A DNA stretch of 64,000 nucleotides from a virus: positions 39,030 to 103,029 of the IMG/VR virus record IMGVR_UViG_3300047557_001098, one strand, 5' to 3'. Below the pieces are notes generated by a model. The model ran no database searches, was not told the origin of the DNA, and saw only the letters and a program-made list of their open reading frames with translations. The translations under genes were made by a program, and so were the position numbers. This document shows positions 9,063 to 19,733 of the stretch, piece after piece. How positions within the stretch are numbered: position 1 is the first letter of the stretch; each line of letters starts with the position of its first letter.

Positions 9063-9524
9063 TTATTTTAGTCCCATAGATTTACGACGGCGCATTGACA
9101 TTTTTCTTTTTAACAATGTTCGTCTTAGTTTTGCTTTTCTTGTTGTTTTCCAAGAACGTTTTAATAAACGTGCTTTACGTAATCTTACTGTTGCTGGTAT
9201 ACGTTTAACTGTATTACCAGATATTCGATATCCTTTGATACCTGATTTGCGTACATTTTTTTGTACGATTATTCTACCTTTTTTATTGCGACGAATGCGA
9301 CGGCGTATCTTTGTAATGCGACCCATCTTAACAACATTAGGATTGCGTTTTTTAGCCGCCTCTTCTAGCACATCTTCATCGACTTCAATTTCTTCAAACA
9401 TTTCATCGACAACATAAGGCTTTGCTTCTTCTAATCTTACAGAAGCAATGTCATCTAAACGTGCAAAGATTAACTCTTTGGCTTCGTCTAACTTATTCTG
9501 TAGAATTAAGTCTACAAAATTCAT
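9063..9524 (-). CDS. 68: gp68-like prohead core protein
   Basis: The protein has 153 residues (T4 gp68 is 141) with two opposite halves. Residues 1-60 are acidic and helical (MNFVDLILQNKLDEAKELIF, then EEIEVDEDVLEE). Residues 65-153 are extremely basic, with runs such as RRRIRRNKKGR and MSMRRRKSMG. The second half could bind DNA or the acidic scaffold. Position between genes 67 and 21 fits gene 68. The start overlaps the upstream gene by 32 bases, more than the other junctions here. An (I/L)xE cleavage by gp21 between the halves would release a basic internal peptide, which is a guess. Confidence 0.75.
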   Translation of the reverse strand: MNFVDLILQNKLDEAKELIFARLDDIASVRLEEAKPYVVDEMFEEIEVDEDVLEEAAKKRNPNVVKMGRITKIRRRIRRNKKGRIIVQKNVRKSGIKGYRISGNTVKRIPATVRLRKARLLKRSWKTTRKAKLRRTLLKRKMSMRRRKSMGLK

Positions 9525-10375: not shown

Positions 10376-12046
10376 TTATCTGCGTCTATTATTTATGCTG
10401 ACCACTGACTTGTTTACCTCATCGTCAAGTTGAGGTGTCAGTGACTCAGGTTGTTCAGCATTCTCTACCGTGTTATCTTCTGGCTCTGCTTGTGGTGCAG
10501 CACCCTGTGGTGGTCCACCCAATACTGGTCCTTGCATGTCATCAGGTAAAGTATCCTTTTCTTTTTGAATCTCTTCTTGCATCGCTTCAATCTCTTCATC
10601 AGTCATCATGAGAATTTTGTTCATGACATAATTATTAGAGAAGTAACGACCGACAAATGGATCAACCATACCAACCATTTGTAATCTGTTTTGTAGTAAC
10701 TCTGCTTCACGCAATTCGGTAAAGTTGTTGTCTTTACGGAAGTCGTAGTAAATGTTTTCTTTGAACTCATCCCACTCTTCACGTGTACAGATGCCCTTGA
10801 GTGTCAATTGAATTCTCAATGCATCATCAAACACTTGTGAAAACTTATTACGCAAACGAATGACAAACTTGGCAAACTTCAGTTCATCACGTGTAACTTC
10901 TTGTGAACGACCAAGCCCTGCAAGTCCACCTTCTTGTGACTCAAGGCGTGAATAAGGTACATTTAGAGACTGAAGCAATTTCTTTTGGAAATACTTTACA
11001 TCCTCTAGTTCACCAAGATTTTGTCCGGCTGGTAGAGTTGTAATCTCTGTACCTTTCCCTCCTTCACGGCGGGGTAACCAGAAATCTTCCAGCATAGACA
11101 TGTGCTTACGCTCGTCACGAATCTCACCTGTGTTGGCATCGTAAACGAGTTTATTACGGTACTTAATCATGATATCACGCAGATATTGTTCTGCTTTACC
11201 ACGTGGTAAATTACCTACATCAATGTAAAATATGCGGCGTTCTGGCGCACGTGAAATACGATAGATAACAATCGCATCTTCAATCATTCTAAGTTGATTG
11301 AGAGGTTTGATTGCTTTATGTAGATATGAAATAACAAATGTATTCTTGGCATCCATCAGACCAGAGTTCACATTAATAATTGAATCTGGTGCAATGCGGA
11401 GTCCTTGTCCTACATTTGCGGTAAATGTTTGTGTTGTTGTACCACGGTCATTATAAACGTAGTATTCAGCAACCGACACAATGATCATTGCACCCGTTTT
11501 CGGGTCACGATCTTTTTTAATCTCACGTACTTTACGAATCTTACGTGGATCAATGTATCTAAGTTCTTGAATACCAAGATTAGGTTGTTTGTCATTTACT
11601 ACCACATGATAGAACATACGACCATCAATGTACCAACGCTTGAACAAATCGTCAGCCAAATTATTAAAGTTCAACATTCTTTGAACGTTGTTGAACTCTT
11701 CAATAATTTTTTTCTTGATTGACTCTGGTTGTTTTAGATTATCAAGAACGATGTCAACAACTCTGCCTTGATCGTCGTGTGTGATGGCCTCATTGACAAT
11801 CTCATCAATTGCCATCTGACATTCTGGATGATTGGACATCTCACGATACCTTGTGATAAGTTCAATCTCATTACGAACTGAGCCTTCTAAGTCAACATAG
11901 GTACCGTAGTAAGCATTCTGTGTGACTGTAACTGCACCATCATCCAATTGTGCAGCAGAAGGCAGTGTAAAGGATGCCTGTTCGGGCTTCTCAGCCTTAA
12001 CGACATCCCTTCCACCAAATGTGAAACCAAATAGTTTAATTGCCAT
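10376..12046 (-). CDS. 20: portal vertex protein gp20
   Basis: The protein has 556 residues (T4 gp20 is 524). Family blocks visible are RNEIELITRYREMSNHPE (58-75), AIDEIVNEAI, the YIDPRKIRKVREIKK wing, SAG-type stem residues around SYLHKAIKPLNQLRMIEDA and GLAGLGRSQEVTRDE. The dodecameric portal nucleates the prohead, docks the gp17 motor and later joins gp13/gp14. The last 80 residues are Pro/Glu/Gln-rich and probably flexible. The AGGATGAT ribosome site has no late promoter beside it, so it is transcribed by read-through of the gene 19 terminator or from further upstream. Confidence 0.96.
   Translation of the reverse strand: MAIKLFGFTFGGRDVVKAEKPEQASFTLPSAAQLDDGAVTVTQNAYYGTYVDLEGSVRNEIELITRYREMSNHPECQMAIDEIVNEAITHDDQGRVVDIVLDNLKQPESIKKKIIEEFNNVQRMLNFNNLADDLFKRWYIDGRMFYHVVVNDKQPNLGIQELRYIDPRKIRKVREIKKDRDPKTGAMIIVSVAEYYVYNDRGTTTQTFTANVGQGLRIAPDSIINVNSGLMDAKNTFVISYLHKAIKPLNQLRMIEDAIVIYRISRAPERRIFYIDVGNLPRGKAEQYLRDIMIKYRNKLVYDANTGEIRDERKHMSMLEDFWLPRREGGKGTEITTLPAGQNLGELEDVKYFQKKLLQSLNVPYSRLESQEGGLAGLGRSQEVTRDELKFAKFVIRLRNKFSQVFDDALRIQLTLKGICTREEWDEFKENIYYDFRKDNNFTELREAELLQNRLQMVGMVDPFVGRYFSNNYVMNKILMMTDEEIEAMQEEIQKEKDTLPDDMQGPVLGGPPQGAAPQAEPEDNTVENAEQPESLTPQLDDEVNKSVVSINNRRR
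10390..10397 (-). promoter_or_regulatory. 67: late promoter CATAAATA for gene 67
   Basis: The minus strand reads CATAAATA, one mismatch from the late consensus. It lies within the last codons of gene 20 and gives a leader of about 20 bases before the gene 67 ATG. Confidence 0.6.
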
Positions 12047-12092: not shown

Positions 12093-12638
12093 TTAGATCA
12101 CACCATCTGCAACTGCTTCCCACCACTGGTAGGTCAGAGTTACAGAAAACTCTTCAATCGTATCATTTGAACCCCAATCAACATCAATTGGAGTGATGTC
12201 AGTTGGGAATAGGCCAACAAATTTATATTTCTTGATTGGGTTACCAGATTTACCAAACTGTGTAACCTCACCATTTTGAGTATATCCTAGAGGTGTAGTT
12301 GCCAATGGATTACGTACATTCAAATTATGACTGTTGATACCATTCATCCAACGCTCGAATGCATTACGTACTACGAAATCTTCGTCGTTGATAATTGTTA
12401 CTGTCCAGTCAGCAAATGTACGATTACCTACAAACTTTAATTCACGACCAAAGTATTGAACTGGCACAACGCCCAGAGTTGCCCCTGGAAGTTGTGCTGT
12501 CTTACACATGAACGTCATTTTTGTTTGTGCGTTTCCTGGTATTGAGAACGCAGGAAACGGCATTGATACCTCAAATAGATTTGGGCGGGCACCGTCACCT
12601 TGTAATTGTGAACGGAATTGATTTACGTTAAATGCCAT
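12093..12638 (-). CDS. 19: tail tube protein gp19
   Basis: The protein has 181 residues (T4 gp19 is 163). It has the family layout: ARPNLFEVSMPFPAF near residue 17, CKTAQLPGATLGVVPVQYFGR (45-65), WTVTIINDEDFVVRNAFERW and a closing FSVTLTYQWWE. Hexamers stack to form the DNA conduit inside the sheath. The gene has its own promoter and an AGGAGAA site and ends in a strong terminator, consistent with high expression. It is the principal tube gene; the 4931-5470 and 63496 genes are diverged tube-fold relatives. Confidence 0.93.
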   Translation of the reverse strand: MAFNVNQFRSQLQGDGARPNLFEVSMPFPAFSIPGNAQTKMTFMCKTAQLPGATLGVVPVQYFGRELKFVGNRTFADWTVTIINDEDFVVRNAFERWMNGINSHNLNVRNPLATTPLGYTQNGEVTQFGKSGNPIKKYKFVGLFPTDITPIDVDWGSNDTIEEFSVTLTYQWWEAVADGVI

Positions 12639-12660: not shown

Positions 12661-12668
12661 TATTTAAA
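12661..12668 (-). promoter_or_regulatory. 19: late promoter TTTAAATA for gene 19
   Basis: TTTAAATA on the minus strand contains the gene 18 TAA stop, has one mismatch from the late consensus, and is followed by AGGAGAA and the gene 19 ATG. Confidence 0.6.
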
Positions 12669-14352
12669 CTGCGCCCACGACCTCATTGAAACTTACACCT
12701 GTACGTACTGCAACAAAGTTAAGTTGAATGAAGTTGATAGAACGAGCAGGTTTAATGTAAATGTCACCAACAAATTCATTACGGTCAATAATTTCTGCTG
12801 TGTTGTTTGTTTCATCGCAGACTACACGGAAGTCAGTGATACCACGACGACCTTGAACATCACGCAGGAATGGTTCTACTAATGCAACAAACTGAGCACG
12901 TGTAAACTGATCATTGAATTCGAACAGTGAGAAACGAGCAGCACGTGCAATTGCTTTTTCAAGTGTAATGAACAAACGACGAACGTTGATACGATCAAAT
13001 GCACTTGGTTTTGCTAACAGAGTTTTGTCTCCAAAAAGAACTGTGCCTTCACCTGGGAACGATACAACAGGGTTAACACCTTTTGTATAAAGAGTATCAC
13101 GTTCTGCCTTAGTAGGATTCCATGCCAGCTTGATTACGTTTTTAATTTGACCACGATTCATACCACCTGGTGAGAACCAAGGATCATTTTGTGTATCGGT
13201 GCGTACACACAAACCAGCAATATCACCGTTCAGAGGAACCCAACGATATACGTCTTTGTATTTGTCATACTGATATTTGTAACCAGAATCCATTACGGCA
13301 TATGATGACTTCGTAATTGTGTCACTGAAATTTGAAATCGATGATGCTTCGTTTCCTGCATTGTCTACGCAGTTTGATTTTTCTGGTGAAAGAAAAACAA
13401 CACAATCTTTACGAGTTTCAGCAATGTTACTGATCACATAGTCGGCAACAGTTTCATTACCAGTTCCAGTTACACAAAGTGAAATGTCAACTGCTTCTGT
13501 ATTTTTGAATAAATCCCAACCAGATGTAATCTGTGATGAACCCACGATACCATCTGAACCAGAACCAAACGAATAAACAACGTTCGCTGTGGTTATTTTA
13601 AATGCTGTAGCATTTGCAGTTGAACCCCATGCTGTACCAGAACTTAGGTTTGCTGTTGCTGGATGTGCAACCCACCATACATACTTTGATTTTTTATTGA
13701 TAACATCTTTATAGTAATTTGAGTTACCAGTATCATCTTTTGCATCGGATGCTTTTGAAACAAATGCATATTTTTCTAACACTGTACCTGCTGTGCCTGA
13801 CCACAAACCATCTTCGTCAACAACAACAATGTGAACTTCGTCATTTGCACCACCTTTATTTGAAACATATGTTGATGTTCCAGTGTTTGCAGTGAATTGT
13901 GTACGATATGGCCATGTACCAAACGTTCCAAGATCGGCCACAGAAATTTTTAGAGAGTTACCTAAAGCGCCAGGCCAACGAGCAACCCATCCACCCCATG
14001 CGCCATCTGTATAACCGGTATGATTATCGTAATAGTCATCTTCATTTTTGATAACCAAGCCAGTTCCGTTTGCTGAAGAGTTTATGCCTGTGCTTGGTAC
14101 GGCACGAACGACTTTAATATTGTTGCCATATGCTAGGAAGTTCGCAGCAGAGAACCAATATTCATAATTATTTTCGTCTGGTTTGCCGAATGTGTCCACA
14201 AGTCGAACTTCATCGGAAATAGTTGTTACAACACCACATGGTCCCCAATTAAAAGGTCCTACGAAAGCGCCAGTAGAAGTGGCAACTGAAGGAATAACTG
14301 TAGTCAGATCGATCTCTGATACATTCACTCCAGGTGATAATTGAAATGCCAT
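12664..14352 (-). CDS. 18: contractile tail sheath protein gp18
   Basis: The protein has 562 residues (T4 gp18 is 659). The start AFQLSPGVNVSEIDLTT and VGPFNWGPCG (32-41) are typical of sheath proteins. The conserved C-terminal core includes RINVRRLFITLEKAIARAARF, FNDQFTRAQF, FLRDVQGRRGI and a final INFIQLNFVAVRTG. The middle (about 130-330) is a variable surface domain. Rings of gp18 surround the tube and contract to drive DNA delivery. A good AAAAGGAGAAA site precedes the ATG in a 55-base gap. Confidence 0.96.
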   Translation of the reverse strand: MAFQLSPGVNVSEIDLTTVIPSVATSTGAFVGPFNWGPCGVVTTISDEVRLVDTFGKPDENNYEYWFSAANFLAYGNNIKVVRAVPSTGINSSANGTGLVIKNEDDYYDNHTGYTDGAWGGWVARWPGALGNSLKISVADLGTFGTWPYRTQFTANTGTSTYVSNKGGANDEVHIVVVDEDGLWSGTAGTVLEKYAFVSKASDAKDDTGNSNYYKDVINKKSKYVWWVAHPATANLSSGTAWGSTANATAFKITTANVVYSFGSGSDGIVGSSQITSGWDLFKNTEAVDISLCVTGTGNETVADYVISNIAETRKDCVVFLSPEKSNCVDNAGNEASSISNFSDTITKSSYAVMDSGYKYQYDKYKDVYRWVPLNGDIAGLCVRTDTQNDPWFSPGGMNRGQIKNVIKLAWNPTKAERDTLYTKGVNPVVSFPGEGTVLFGDKTLLAKPSAFDRINVRRLFITLEKAIARAARFSLFEFNDQFTRAQFVALVEPFLRDVQGRRGITDFRVVCDETNNTAEIIDRNEFVGDIYIKPARSINFIQLNFVAVRTGVSFNEVVGAV

Positions 14353-14407: not shown

Positions 14408-16039
14408 TTACAAACTTGATGATAAATAGCCCGCTGGCGGCTCCCACATATCTCCATCTTCCACCTCAACTTCCCTACGCAATCCATCTTCAATAAAGCC
14501 AAATGGTAGCATATTTTCTTCACCCAACATCTGTTGTTCTTCTAACATAATTTTACGAATATCAATTCTTGTCTCATCTTTGAAGAAAGTCTGTGCTGTC
14601 AGCCATGCGTAGAGCACCAGACCCATGACGATATCATCATTATTGCCTTCTTCGGCAGCATAAGTGTCTTTAGTTCTGACAAAAGTATTCAGTTCGGCAA
14701 TGGTATTAAAGTCACGAATAATTAATTTGTCGTTTTCTACCAACGTTTTTAGGTTGGCACAACCAATTTTCTTGACAGATTTGGTTGTCTTTACACCAAA
14801 AGCCACCGAGCGTTTGAAACCAGCAGAGATACTCTGACCTTTGATATGATGATGTTCCAACTTATAGATGTTCTCATACTCTAAATCATAGTGTAAAATG
14901 TCTACCACTTGCTGACCAACGTTGTTAGTTTCAATAAGCACATAGGCTTGATTATATCGATTGGCTAAAGAGTATATTACTGTTGGTAAAAATAACAAAG
15001 GTAGCTTATTATTACGATAAACAGCAACTTGTTTATAAGGTGCTTCAGTAGCATCAACCACATTAATGGTATGATAATCCAAAGCAACACCTTCGGCACA
15101 GTCTACTGTGGCAATATAGATACGCCCTGGGCGTGCATCTTCATAGATAAAGAGGTGACCATCATCTTCAATTCGCATTGGATCATTGAATGCAAGTGAA
15201 CGCAATTTAGAACCTGAGATGAGCGTTGCGGCTGAGCCAATAAACTCAGTCTCAAACTCTTGACGAAACTGCTCTTCGGAGGTATTTCGTATTGTCTCTT
15301 CTTTCCATGTTTGATCACGACCCGGTACTTGTGACCAGTGAACTTCAAGCGTCTTGTAAAGAGAACGATTTTCAATAGCATCCATCCACATTTTATAGAA
15401 TAGATTCAAGCCATTTGGTGTAGAAACAATAATAACTTTTGTTGTTTTACCTGATGAGATAACGGGGTAAGTAGAAGTAAAAAAGTCTACTGCCATGTTA
15501 TGTGGCACGAATGCAAACTCATCAAGAAAGATTAGATTGTACGTGCCACCTCGAACTCCAGAATTTGATGTTGCATATGCATAAATTTTAGAACCATTTT
15601 CCAATTCAATTGAACGTTTGTTCCAATTAATAATACCTTGTTGAAGCCAATGTGGAAGATATTCATATGCCTTTTGAATCTTTGCTAGAATATCTTGTGC
15701 AAGTTGAAGTTTGTTTGCAAGAATACCGATCACAAACTCTTCATTGAACAATGCACACCATAACATGTAACCGACAGTAGTGGTTGTCTTACCAACCTGT
15801 CGTGGCATTTTTGCAATGCAGAAACGATTTTCGTGAAACGTTTTGACCATATCTTCTTGAAAGCCCCACATTTCAAACGGGACTAGTCCACGGTCAACGT
15901 TGACAATCTTTACGTAATTGCGAATAAAGTATACCGGATCTTCGGCACACTTTGCAAATTCTTTTACTTGATCTTCTGTGAGGGATAATTCAACACCAAC
16001 TCTTTTTAGTCTTGCATTACCAAGATATCCGTCATCCAT
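14408..16039 (-). CDS. 17: terminase large subunit gp17
   Basis: The protein has 543 residues (T4 gp17 is 610). The N-terminal packaging ATPase has Walker A MPRQVGKT (78-85), Walker B LIFLDE (169-174) and the coupling motif STPNG (206-210). The C-terminal RNase H-like nuclease has VDCAEG (312-317) with Asp313, Asp321 and a late DD pair near 479. The enzyme cuts concatemeric DNA and pumps it through gp20. It lacks the long N-terminal extension of T4 gp17. The upstream neighbour is the Dps-like gene rather than gene 16 itself, with only a 3-base gap. Confidence 0.97.
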   Translation of the reverse strand: MDDGYLGNARLKRVGVELSLTEDQVKEFAKCAEDPVYFIRNYVKIVNVDRGLVPFEMWGFQEDMVKTFHENRFCIAKMPRQVGKTTTTVGYMLWCALFNEEFVIGILANKLQLAQDILAKIQKAYEYLPHWLQQGIINWNKRSIELENGSKIYAYATSNSGVRGGTYNLIFLDEFAFVPHNMAVDFFTSTYPVISSGKTTKVIIVSTPNGLNLFYKMWMDAIENRSLYKTLEVHWSQVPGRDQTWKEETIRNTSEEQFRQEFETEFIGSAATLISGSKLRSLAFNDPMRIEDDGHLFIYEDARPGRIYIATVDCAEGVALDYHTINVVDATEAPYKQVAVYRNNKLPLLFLPTVIYSLANRYNQAYVLIETNNVGQQVVDILHYDLEYENIYKLEHHHIKGQSISAGFKRSVAFGVKTTKSVKKIGCANLKTLVENDKLIIRDFNTIAELNTFVRTKDTYAAEEGNNDDIVMGLVLYAWLTAQTFFKDETRIDIRKIMLEEQQMLGEENMLPFGFIEDGLRREVEVEDGDMWEPPAGYLSSSL

Positions 16040-16042
16040 ATT

Positions 16043-16477
16043 TTATTTTGTAAAACTCTTTAGCATCCAGCCATGCTTTTGATGTGCATCAAGAATGTCT
16101 TGTAAAAAGTTACCAACAGCAGGTTCATCTGCTGCATCTGCAATTGCAATACCTGCACGTAATTCCATAATGTATTTGTCGTTATCTTGAGCAAGTTCGG
16201 ACATCATAACAAGAGGTGACGGTATAGCAACGATGTCTTGTACTTTAGAAAGTTCCATCATTCGTGCAAGTGTTGTCGGTGCATAAGAACCTAATGCACG
16301 AATATGTTCGGCAATAGAATCTGTTTGATCGAACACAGAATCATAGAAGTCGCCTAAGAATCCGTGATATTGTGCAAAGTCTGGTCCTTCCACATTCCAG
16401 TGAAAAGTATGTGCCTTGAAATACAAACCGAAGTTTGTTCCCAAAATCACTTTCATTTGTTCGATTAATTGTTCCAT
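16043..16477 (-). CDS. dps: Dps-like ferritin-family protein
   Basis: The protein has 144 residues and is all helical. The Dps inter-subunit ferroxidase signature is intact and correctly spaced: His26 in FHWNVEG, His38, Asp53 and Glu57 in TDSIAEH, followed by IRALG. Dps proteins form 12-subunit shells that oxidise and store iron with peroxide, and many bind DNA. The length is slightly below the usual 150-170, and there is no Lys-rich N-terminal tail, so DNA binding by that route is unlikely. It lies between the two terminase genes, with 3- and 4-base gaps. Protection of host or packaged DNA from oxidative damage is the plausible role. Confidence 0.88.
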   Translation of the reverse strand: MEQLIEQMKVILGTNFGLYFKAHTFHWNVEGPDFAQYHGFLGDFYDSVFDQTDSIAEHIRALGSYAPTTLARMMELSKVQDIVAIPSPLVMMSELAQDNDKYIMELRAGIAIADAADEPAVGNFLQDILDAHQKHGWMLKSFTK

Positions 16478-16481
16478 AGTC

Positions 16482-16883
16482 TTATTTATTTGATTTAATC
16501 ATTTTTAAAAGTTCGGTTGTGGAGCCAACAAACACTGCTTTATCTATGTTGACTCCTTTTGTGGATTCAGATTGGGGTGCAAGCTCTCTTTTTCTTTTCT
16601 GAAGTTCCAACAAATCTTTATTCATCTCAGCCAAATTCTTCATCATTGTGGCTAAGACTTCATATGCTCTTGGTGATTCCGATTGATTAGCAACAGATGC
16701 TAATTCACCTAATGCTTTGTTACCATTGTTGATTAACTCACGCATATTGGTACGTGCAAACTCAGCATCAGCATCAATCTGATTTACGTTATTATCAATA
16801 ACAACAGGCAAAGTTTCTACAGTTTGTTCCTGTATAGGTTCAACGTCAAAGATTTCAGACAAATTTTTATTTAATTTTTTCAT
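16482..16883 (-). CDS. 16: terminase small subunit gp16
   Basis: The protein has 133 residues (T4 gp16 is 164). It has a disordered acidic start, a central helical pair (about 40-95, including ARTNMRELINNGNKAL and YEVLATMMKNLAEMNKDLLE) and a conserved C-terminal AVFVGSTTELLKMIK. The family forms ring oligomers that regulate gp17 and help recognise DNA for packaging. It overlaps gene 15 by four bases (ATGA). It is separated from gene 17 by the Dps-like gene, which is an unusual insertion relative to T4. Confidence 0.88.
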   Translation of the reverse strand: MKKLNKNLSEIFDVEPIQEQTVETLPVVIDNNVNQIDADAEFARTNMRELINNGNKALGELASVANQSESPRAYEVLATMMKNLAEMNKDLLELQKRKRELAPQSESTKGVNIDKAVFVGSTTELLKMIKSNK

Positions 16884-17881
16884 GATAATGTATCAGGCCA
16901 CTCTTTAATTGTTTCAATGTAGCCATAGTTAGTGTTTGGTAATGCTGTATTTGGCGTAGGCTCGGTAATAACGGCAGTAGCGTTGACAGAGTTGATGTCA
17001 AGAGTTGCAACGTTATAAGAAGCCCCTGAGTAATCGCCTGTAAGTGTGTAACCTTTTTCGATATATTTGTTGCCACCAGTAACAACAAGTGTACCGGTTG
17101 CTGTGTTACTAAAGTATTCTACAGTACCAATAAACCCATTTGCAGTATCACGAACTGTTTCACCTGTCGTAAATACGTTATTACCATTTGCATAATCAAC
17201 GTAAATTTTTTGTAGTTCTTTAGATGTGAGGTCAATATTAAGATTAGTATTGGCTTGATTAATAATCTTGCCAGACTTAACAGGTGGCCAGATGAAACTC
17301 TTGGCTGTAAAATTTAAATCCCACAAAATAATTCTTGTTGTACCATCAGACATACCACCTTCATACTCAACTGTAGACGCAACAGAATTAAGTATGATAG
17401 GCACAGTGTATTTTTGACCCATCGACGGAATAAAATCTACGACCACACTAAAATCTGGTGTGAAAAATGGTAGAATCTGTTCTAATATCTGTGTGCCATC
17501 TTCTGTATTACGTACATAGATTGACAAACTAAACTCAAAGTTATAAGGTACAGGAAGAAACTGTGTTGCTATCCCGGTGTTTGTTCCTGATGCAAAATTT
17601 TGTAAAGTAGAAATTTGTTTTCGGCTCACATCATATTCAAGACTGTCAAGATTGAATGACATTCTTGGTATCACAGAGTTGACTGACTTGATAAGATTAG
17701 GATCAGATGTAATCTGTGTCAGATATCTTTCTTTCGGGCCATATGAAAGAGGTACTTTTAATTTTTCTTTTGGCACACCAGATTGTGTATAACGAACAAT
17801 CTCAAGATCATTAAACAATGTACCAAACACCACAACCATTTTACGAATCGTGCGATGATAAAACTGAGCATTACCTAACAT
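16880..17881 (-). CDS. 15: proximal tail sheath stabiliser / tail completion protein gp15
   Basis: The protein has 333 residues (T4 gp15 is 272). The first 220 residues carry the family blocks: FYHRTIRKMVVVFGTLFND (7-25), KVPLSYGPKERYL, IPRMSFNLDSLEYD and WDLNFTAKSFIWPPV. Gp15 caps the tail and joins it to the neck. The last 110 residues (after about 220) are Thr/Asn/Gly-rich and absent from T4, and look like an added beta domain with a DFTGASYN-type insert. The start overlaps the gene 14 stop by one base. Confidence 0.9.
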   Translation of the reverse strand: MLGNAQFYHRTIRKMVVVFGTLFNDLEIVRYTQSGVPKEKLKVPLSYGPKERYLTQITSDPNLIKSVNSVIPRMSFNLDSLEYDVSRKQISTLQNFASGTNTGIATQFLPVPYNFEFSLSIYVRNTEDGTQILEQILPFFTPDFSVVVDFIPSMGQKYTVPIILNSVASTVEYEGGMSDGTTRIILWDLNFTAKSFIWPPVKSGKIINQANTNLNIDLTSKELQKIYVDYANGNNVFTTGETVRDTANGFIGTVEYFSNTATGTLVVTGGNKYIEKGYTLTGDYSGASYNVATLDINSVNATAVITEPTPNTALPNTNYGYIETIKEWPDTLS

Positions 17882-18783
17882 TACGGTTCTCCAAACGGAT
17901 TGACTTCCGTAAAGTCAATGATGCCATCACTTGCTGCTTCGATACGTGCGTTGTCAATGATATCTTCAAATGCATTGTTTTGTGTTGGTGCATCGGTTGC
18001 AAGTGTCACTGTCCATTGTGCCGAACTTGTGTTGCCTTTTACATTAGCCGACGCAGTAAAATCGCCTTGCATACGATACACATCGATGTATGCGTTTGGT
18101 TCAAAATCATATACTAATGCTTGTGCTGTTGCGGTAGATAATGATGAACCTTGATAAACAATTTCATCATTTACAAACTTACCTGAACCTGAACCTAACG
18201 AAATACGTAGTTTTGGATAGTAATTACGAATGTTATTGTCAATATCTTTTACACCAGTTTCAATAATTTCATTTGAAAAATAAAACTGTTTCATTTTTAA
18301 AGCATAAACATAAACATTACCGCCACGACCACGGCCTAATGTATAAAACATTGCTTGATCGTTTTCATTTTCAACACTTGTAATTTCAAAAAAACTAGTA
18401 GTCATTGGTATATAAACCAAATCACCTTCACGTGGTCGTGTATAACCATTAACTGTATATCTAAATCTTAGTCTTGAAATTAACATGGTTACTTCATCAC
18501 GAATTTCTAAACCAAATTTAGATATAAAGTCTTGCTCACCATCAAAGCCAGTTACATTTTCCAAATACATTTCAATAGCATGTGCGGTGCGATATTCTTT
18601 TAATGTATCTTCACCAAACAAATAATCTACTTGATCACGTGTTGTACGTGGCAAATAATATACATCAAGACCATAAATCTTGAGTGCTTCAATTACCAAA
18701 TCTTCAACAAGCAGTTGCTCCGGTGTTACAGGAGCATCTGCAAGTCTTGTTGGAAAATTATTAAAATAAAAATTAGTTGCCAT
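17881..18783 (-). CDS. 14: neck protein gp14
   Basis: The protein has 300 residues (T4 gp14 is 256). The N-terminal half is conserved: NFYFNNFPTR (4-13), LLVEDLVIEALKIYGLDVYYLPR (24-46), AIEMYLENVTGFDGEQDFISKFGLEI and EGDLVYIPMTTSFFEI. It forms the neck with gp13 below the portal and retains DNA after packaging. The C-terminal part (200-300) contains SGSGKFVNDEIVYQG and other short strands, and is longer than in T4. Gene 14 follows gene 13 with a one-base overlap. Confidence 0.92.
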   Translation of the reverse strand: MATNFYFNNFPTRLADAPVTPEQLLVEDLVIEALKIYGLDVYYLPRTTRDQVDYLFGEDTLKEYRTAHAIEMYLENVTGFDGEQDFISKFGLEIRDEVTMLISRLRFRYTVNGYTRPREGDLVYIPMTTSFFEITSVENENDQAMFYTLGRGRGGNVYVYALKMKQFYFSNEIIETGVKDIDNNIRNYYPKLRISLGSGSGKFVNDEIVYQGSSLSTATAQALVYDFEPNAYIDVYRMQGDFTASANVKGNTSSAQWTVTLATDAPTQNNAFEDIIDNARIEAASDGIIDFTEVNPFGEP

Positions 18784-19733
18784 TAGCCAGTAAAGATTTC
18801 AGACGGCAGTGAACCCATCATGTAAATCTGTTCTTCCATTTCTTTGATTTCTTCGGATGCTTCATCATAAATCTTTTGACCGTTGAGTGTAACACCACCT
18901 GGCATTTGAATACCTTCAAACTTTTTAAGATTGTTACCCCACTGCTGTTTGATTTTTGCAGTTGCTAACTGTTTTAGAAAACGGTCGTTCCACACATCAG
19001 TTGTGCCTTCAATTTGAATTGCTGAGTTATTATGTGTCAGTGTTGGTGGACCGATCAATACCAGACTTGTTGGTGACACAATGTTACCGACTTGCTTTGA
19101 TTCTGTACCAATGGTAATAAAATCATAAGGGACAATCTCTTGATCAAACTTAGTGCCATAACCTGTGATTGTATTTGATGCTGGTGTGCCTGATACTGTG
19201 CCAGTTAGTGTAACTGTTTCTGGACGAACTGTGCGATAACACTCAATAATAACCCAATCACCAGGTTCTACATCCCTTGTCCAATCAATATCAAGAAACA
19301 CTTTGTTCTGATGACGATTGAATCTGAACTGTGGTGTGCCAGAGAATAACAGATTCAATGTACGTAAATGCTGCATTGTGATTTCGTATGACACATACGA
19401 TACCGATGTGAAGTCATAGAGATCGTGTAGACGCAATTGATAACGCAAGTCAAACATATTGATTGATGCGTTTGACTGGTCAAATGAAAAAATGCCTGTG
19501 ACAAATTGTACCGCATCAGGACAGTAAATCCACTGACGATCAATATCTGCTTGAGTGATTTGATGTTTCATGAACAGTTTTTCTGTTCCATCATAGTGAT
19601 AATCACGCCAAAAGTTTAGCGCATCATCAATGCGATCATCAACTTGGTCATCATCAACGTTGATTTCAATTACTGGCCAGCCAAGTCGGCGTAGGCAGTA
19701 ATCTTTGAATTGTTGTCTTGTGTTTATTGACAT
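18783..19733 (-). CDS. 13: neck protein gp13
   Basis: The protein has 316 residues (T4 gp13 is 309). It opens with TRQQFKDYCLRRLGWPVIEINVDDDQVDDRIDDAL (split across residues 5-39), the conserved gp13 start, followed by FWRDYHYDGTEK. Later blocks are DWVIIECYRTVRPE near 163 and TAKIKQQWGNNLKKF near 269, with a Thr/Ser-rich insertion (175-240) between them. With gp14 it closes the head. It heads the neck-tail-packaging run, which reads 13 to 19 in transcription order. Confidence 0.94.
   Translation of the reverse strand: MSINTRQQFKDYCLRRLGWPVIEINVDDDQVDDRIDDALNFWRDYHYDGTEKLFMKHQITQADIDRQWIYCPDAVQFVTGIFSFDQSNASINMFDLRYQLRLHDLYDFTSVSYVSYEITMQHLRTLNLLFSGTPQFRFNRHQNKVFLDIDWTRDVEPGDWVIIECYRTVRPETVTLTGTVSGTPASNTITGYGTKFDQEIVPYDFITIGTESKQVGNIVSPTSLVLIGPPTLTHNNSAIQIEGTTDVWNDRFLKQLATAKIKQQWGNNLKKFEGIQMPGGVTLNGQKIYDEASEEIKEMEEQIYMMGSLPSEIFTG

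Follow-up and report, generated by a model that had tools for sequence, protein, structure and literature searches.

Introduction

Mini-ferritins of the Dps type are known from bacteria, with solved structures such as Pseudomonas aeruginosa PA0962 (8ff9), Bacillus brevis Dps (1n1q) and Bacillus anthracis Dlp-1 (1ji5), and phages encode them as well. Dps genes of Lactobacillus phages of the Semele group (PMC6669764) and of the 'Gratiaviridae' gut phages (PMC8008677) are proposed to keep oxidative damage in check during infection; those of the Semele group lie near DNA-metabolism genes, and in both groups they are described as scattered accessory genes. The cultured phages S-SRM01, S-EIVl, Salmonella phage 7-11 and Aeromonas phage LAh_8 also encode Dps, with the gene beside a porin gene, sulfate adenylyltransferase, thymidylate synthase or other nucleotide genes, and in none of these four did we find the gene between the small (TerS) and large (TerL) terminase subunit genes. 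In the S-SRM01 entry (MW015081.1, 128216-132177) the TerL-matching protein is annotated as tail sheath and the next one as terminase large subunit, so that the two labels look swapped.

Here we consider a dps gene in a window of 64,000 nucleotides, the whole stretch of viral DNA that was analyzed, which comes from a 103 kb IMG/VR record. Unlike the Dps genes of the Lactobacillus and 'Gratiaviridae' phages, it occupies the slot between the two terminase genes. Its product resembles the bacterial proteins named above in its helical bundle, the helix between B and C, the spacing of its active site and its length, yet it is only about 29-33% identical to them, strongly acidic, tail-less and phage-encoded; it is 33% identical over its full length to the Dps of S-SRM01, which is a T4-like phage like the one studied here. 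A literature search, conducted mostly outside subscription journals, turned up no description of Dps lodged between terminase genes or fused with a prohead protease. Thus, while phage Dps itself is known, its fixed place in the terminase slot and its fusions to head proteins, described below, appear to be undescribed. These arrangements suggest a concrete link between iron or oxidative chemistry and virion assembly, through a dps gene in a head cluster and a Dps domain joined to head proteins, and they bear on the possibility that phage particles carry iron and on how they would do so.

A Dps mini-ferritin with an intact ferroxidase site

The open reading frame at 16043-16477 (minus strand, 144 amino acids) encodes a true Dps mini-ferritin. 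It matches the Pfam Ferritin family PF00210 (9.1e-22) and phrog_3636 (2.2e-31), and the AlphaFold model of the monomer (pLDDT 97.3) places helices at residues 2-28, 34-61, 70-76, 88-115 and 119-143, giving a four-helix bundle and, between B and C, the short helix typical of Dps. The best 50 PDB matches in Foldseek are all of the Dps type, with TM scores up to 0.96; the top-ranked (1n1q, 2d5k and 8ff9; Dps of Bacillus brevis, Staphylococcus and Pseudomonas) align at TM 0.93-0.95 with 28-33% identity. We also considered a 24-mer ferritin or bacterioferritin and rejected it, as the fifth C-terminal helix of those proteins is absent from the model, in which helix D ends the chain at residue 143, and the ligands form the Dps set rather than an intra-subunit di-iron site.

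The four ferroxidase ligands, encoded on the minus strand at 16400-16402 (His26), 16364-16366 (His38), 16319-16321 (Asp53) and 16307-16309 (Glu57), follow the family spacing H-x11-H-x14-D-x3-E, align with the quartet of solved Dps chains and do not vary across 41 aligned rows of diverse Dps with identities down to 31%. Of the 238 window-type loci fetched, 236 have the quartet intact and two break off ahead of His26; the 184 copies from other phages all have it too, ten of them with an additional residue in front of the Asp. Part of the region around His26 served as a search pattern, which biases loci found through Dps toward that residue, whereas copies found through TerL are free of this bias. 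The initial annotation, made from the sequence and its reading frames, had proposed a Dps-type gene with an intact ferroxidase signature, and the family match, the spacing and the alignment with solved structures bear this out. The bundle that it expected on folding is present, and homologues, far from being confined to this phage with decayed sites, are widespread with their sites intact.

The same annotation held that the lack of a basic N-terminal tail argues against classic DNA condensation, and here too the model agrees. Helix A begins at residue 2, leaving no tail, and the protein has a pI of 4.79 and a net charge of about -10 (pI 4.77-5.6 among relatives), so that classical tail-driven condensation is unlikely. 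A nucleoid-type Dps that condenses phage or host DNA would be suggested by the family name and by the phrog annotation, 'DNA binding protein', but it is at odds with the tail-less, acidic protein found here. Some tail-less Dps bind DNA through other surfaces, and we therefore regard this role as weakly founded and very improbable rather than impossible. The conserved N-terminus, MEQLIEQM, was also examined as a cleavage site or tag; this reading was set aside, since position 6 is not fully conserved and these residues begin helix A.

Position in a T4-like head and tail gene cluster

The gene is present in a single copy in the whole 103 kb record. Its upstream neighbor is a T4 gp16-like TerS gene (16482-16883, minus strand; PF11053, 1.1e-11; phrog_445, 8e-32) and its downstream neighbor a gp17-like TerL gene (14408-16039, minus strand; PF03237, 5.4e-30; PF17289, 1.3e-15). 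The gaps measure 4 nt on the TerS side and 3 nt on the TerL side, in agreement with the 3-4 bases first reported. The order along the minus strand is a gp13-like head-tail adaptor (18783-19733; phrog_211, 3.3e-42), a gp14-like neck protein (17881-18783; PF11649, 2.9e-30), a gp15-like tail sheath stabilizer (16880-17881; PF16724, 1.3e-62), TerS, dps, TerL, the tail sheath (12664-14352; phrog_23, 7e-132), the tail tube (12093-12638; phrog_45, 2.4e-61), a gp20-like portal (10376-12046; phrog_213, 6.6e-208) and the prohead genes, which include a head maturation protease. By TerL and portal, the closest cultured relatives, about 53-55% identical, are T4-like and come from Pelagibacter, Methylophilales and cyanobacteria.

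The T4-late-promoter-like motif TATAAATA is not enriched in the window, where its 4 occurrences fall below the 5.6 expected by chance, and a casual look around dps noticed no further iron or peroxide genes. Within the prohead region, an open reading frame of 153 amino acids (9063-9524, minus strand) that matches no family has a second half rich in arginine and lysine.

Conservation and selection

The order TerS-dps-TerL is kept in all 80 of the nearest Dps-bearing viral contigs wherever those genes are on the contig, with one extra reading frame between dps and TerL in two of them. Because scans with Dps as the query are circular with respect to its presence, the denominator was taken from scans with TerL. 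Among the nearest 80 TerL loci, 72 have TerS-dps-TerL, 4 have dps-TerL with TerS off the contig end or undetected, 3 are cut off and 1 lacks dps, so that, counted without dps as a query, 76 of the 77 readable loci carry the gene. The sole exception is L270, in which TerS and TerL overlap. A second TerL clade is more mixed: dps is found in 31 loci, TerS but no dps in 21, and in 22 neither gene was detected, the remaining 6 being cut off.

Presence of dps follows the TerL tree closely, changing 4 times compared with a mean of 24.9 for shuffled labels, and one of those 4 changes is contig L125, an in-frame Dps-TerL fusion that was wrongly labeled as lacking dps. In L125 (2669-4558) the first 109 residues of Dps run in frame into TerL. 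It occurs in a single contig, with the end of Dps lost in frame, and we treat it as an assembly error or an isolated deletion. L270 and L292, which lack dps inside dps clades, appear to have lost it separately, and such natural losses show that the gene is not essential everywhere.

Where dps is retained, it is under strong constraint. Between close relatives, dps has a median dN/dS of 0.061, compared with 0.047 for TerL and 0.093 for TerS, and gene order is conserved across more than 100 contigs. Taken together, the comparisons indicate that dps has a fixed place in the head gene cluster of a large uncultured T4-like clade and is under strong selection there. It is extremely unlikely that the window has merely caught a host gene in transit or in decay that does nothing for the phage. 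Such an event might be expected at an insertion hot spot, and the slot also takes a putative homing endonuclease, but the low dN/dS, the ligands intact in every copy that reaches them and the clade-wide presence all speak against decay, as do a GC content (38.6%) near that of the window (37.8%) and cellular relatives that are at most 42% identical.

The terminase slot as a probable cargo site

Tight spacing and conserved order could mean that Dps works together with the terminase, perhaps as a cofactor in packaging or as a DNA-handling subunit. However, dps does not occur wherever the TerS-TerL pair does: the slot is empty and the two genes abut in L270, L292, L334 and L338, and the pair lacks dps in other loci as well. 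In other phages the slot is filled with unrelated genes. Among T4-like relatives of the window phage, it holds a 2OG-Fe(II) oxygenase and a tryptophan halogenase in Pelagibacter phage HTVC008M and an F5/8 type C protein in Methylophilales phage Melnitz, in each case non-packaging content that differs from dps. Judged by eye, a thermonuclease (SNase)-like reading frame of 142 amino acids, near the length of dps, occupies the slot in L323 (1185-1613) and L327 (2569-2997), and the extra frame that follows dps and precedes TerL in L034 (5153-5725) and L044 (5439-6011) resembles a GIY-YIG endonuclease, putatively a homing endonuclease.

The terminase itself appears to have changed while dps stayed. 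In L057 and L058, TerL is 42% identical to that of the window, compared with 72-73% for Dps, 67% for the sheath and 80% for the tube, and dps carriers fall in both of the two deep clades of the TerL tree. This pattern is best read as replacement of TerL beside a retained dps, which argues against a physical partnership between the two proteins. Because relatives have empty slots, TerL has been exchanged and other genes occupy the same place, dps is read as cargo in the head operon and not as part of the packaging motor, and the TerS-TerL interval is, on this comparison, a cargo site or insertion hot spot. The acidity of Dps is a further point against a DNA-handling subunit, and we hold a terminase partnership to be highly unlikely. 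The position shows that dps travels with the head cluster and says nothing of Dps packaging DNA. Thus, of the proposal that this is a late packaging gene by virtue of its position, membership in the head and tail morphogenesis cluster stands, while the packaging role is not supported.

Two further features of terminase loci were noted in passing. In L117 (1646-4165) an inserted reading frame splits TerL, and the first residues of the downstream part resemble the end of an intein. In the T4-like contigs L329, L333, L337 and L347, gp15 abuts TerL and TerS was undetected, having moved, been lost or diverged.

Dps in the head modules of other phages

Elsewhere, Dps is joined to head proteins. In L537 (3457-4794), L540 (3480-4829) and L543 (3427-4827), PF00210 and the HK97-type prohead protease family PF04586 are found in one reading frame between the portal and major capsid genes, with the Dps quartet intact; in L537 the order by family match is TerL, portal, Dps-protease and capsid, and a TerS-sized frame precedes TerL. 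Independently of these contigs, BFVD entries from uncultured phages that bear the name prohead protease (A0A6J7WPK9, A0A6J7XDU5 and A0A6J7WIS1) also contain Dps domains. In another T4-like lineage (L184-L191 and L529-L532), Dps lies within a protein of 374-483 amino acids encoded between the portal and the gp21 protease. The model of one such fusion, of 440 amino acids (L184:2422-3744), has a pLDDT of 59.6 with flanks mostly below 50, and we claim no fold for the flanks. In a third setting, Dps is encoded immediately after a phrog_776 portal, and in some cases it has a C-terminal extension that matches DUF5824. Across 68 dereplicated phage Dps, the gene immediately upstream is a phrog_776 portal in 10, a portal of another family in 2 and a member of cytidyltransferase families in 11, although this survey depends on the chosen queries and its fractions are no estimate for all phages.

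A related case is that of the T4 internal proteins IPII and IPIII, non-essential proteins carried in the head, to which they are directed by a capsid-targeting sequence of roughly 10 amino acids (PMC9958956). That sequence is absent from the window Dps. In L126-L142, L167-L183 and L449-L528, Dps adjoins cytidyltransferase and other genes whose products begin with tag-like N-termini (MKSFLTYLKEE, MDFKEFITEA). These N-termini, found on many neighbors of Dps in the T4-like loci, resemble the T4 tag. The motif occurs in 49 of 1,031 reading frames of Dps-bearing phage loci compared with 0 of 659 bacterial frames, but the pattern is our own and was written after examples had been seen, so that it serves as a lead only; within the window it matches 0 of 55 frames, dps included.

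These observations bring in the chief rival to a free role for Dps in the infected cell, namely that Dps is a component of the procapsid or virion, a shell, possibly carrying iron, that is enclosed with the genome and either protects packaged DNA from oxidative damage or is delivered to the next host. The initial annotation had named packaging of the shell as one option, and the joining of Dps to head proteins in other phages supports it indirectly. By analogy, the fusions, the protease-linked domains and the portal neighbors would fit such a place better than a free cytoplasmic role, making it plausible for the fusion-bearing lineages and possible in the window clade. The window protein, however, is unfused and begins without a tag-like sequence, and window-type Dps form a clade of their own apart from the head-fused forms, so we consider a procapsid or virion place for it rather unlikely. 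Equally tentative is a broader version, in which mini-ferritin shells take part in head building in several phage lineages, the Dps domain reaching the procapsid fused to a prohead protease or a portal-gp21 protein in some and as a free protein made together with the terminase in the window clade, and virions carry an iron-oxidizing or iron-loaded compartment alongside their DNA.

Phylogeny and origin

The Dps tree places the window-type proteins in one clade (SH-aLRT 100) and the portal-gp21 fusions in another (100), and groups the S78 fusions with the forms encoded downstream of a portal (99). All of these phage Dps lie inside a phage group that is separate from the bacterial Dps in the sample, which comprise only matches to the window's patterns; with 144 columns, many forks are weak and the deep order is uncertain. 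The tree suggests that Dps may have entered head modules on separate occasions rather than once. A Bacteroidetes donor was considered, because the best match in the genome collections (L369, CAIWHI010000271.1; 48%) is filed under that group, and was rejected when its neighbors revealed a phage contig. Since the best match is of phage origin and true bacterial matches are at most 42% identical, we name no cellular donor. L369 is thus a Dps-carrying phage contig that has been binned as a Bacteroidetes genome.

A proposed role as a late ferroxidase

The account that we favor, and hold to be probable, is that an ancestor of this T4-like clade acquired Dps in the TerS-TerL slot, where strong purifying selection has since maintained it as cargo, and that it acts as a ferroxidase late in infection. 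The protein would be made late, together with the structural proteins, and would assemble into the usual shell of 12 subunits. The inter-subunit His/His/Asp/Glu site would then oxidize Fe(II), preferably with H2O2, and removal of these two Fenton reagents could benefit the phage at a time when unpackaged DNA accumulates. The shell may also hold released iron during assembly; its use as an iron store for tail tip or PAAR proteins, which the initial annotation had raised, is purely speculative. An antioxidant role of this kind would fit the one case among the 68 dereplicated phage Dps in which the upstream neighbor is an Fe/Mn superoxide dismutase (alignment A4).
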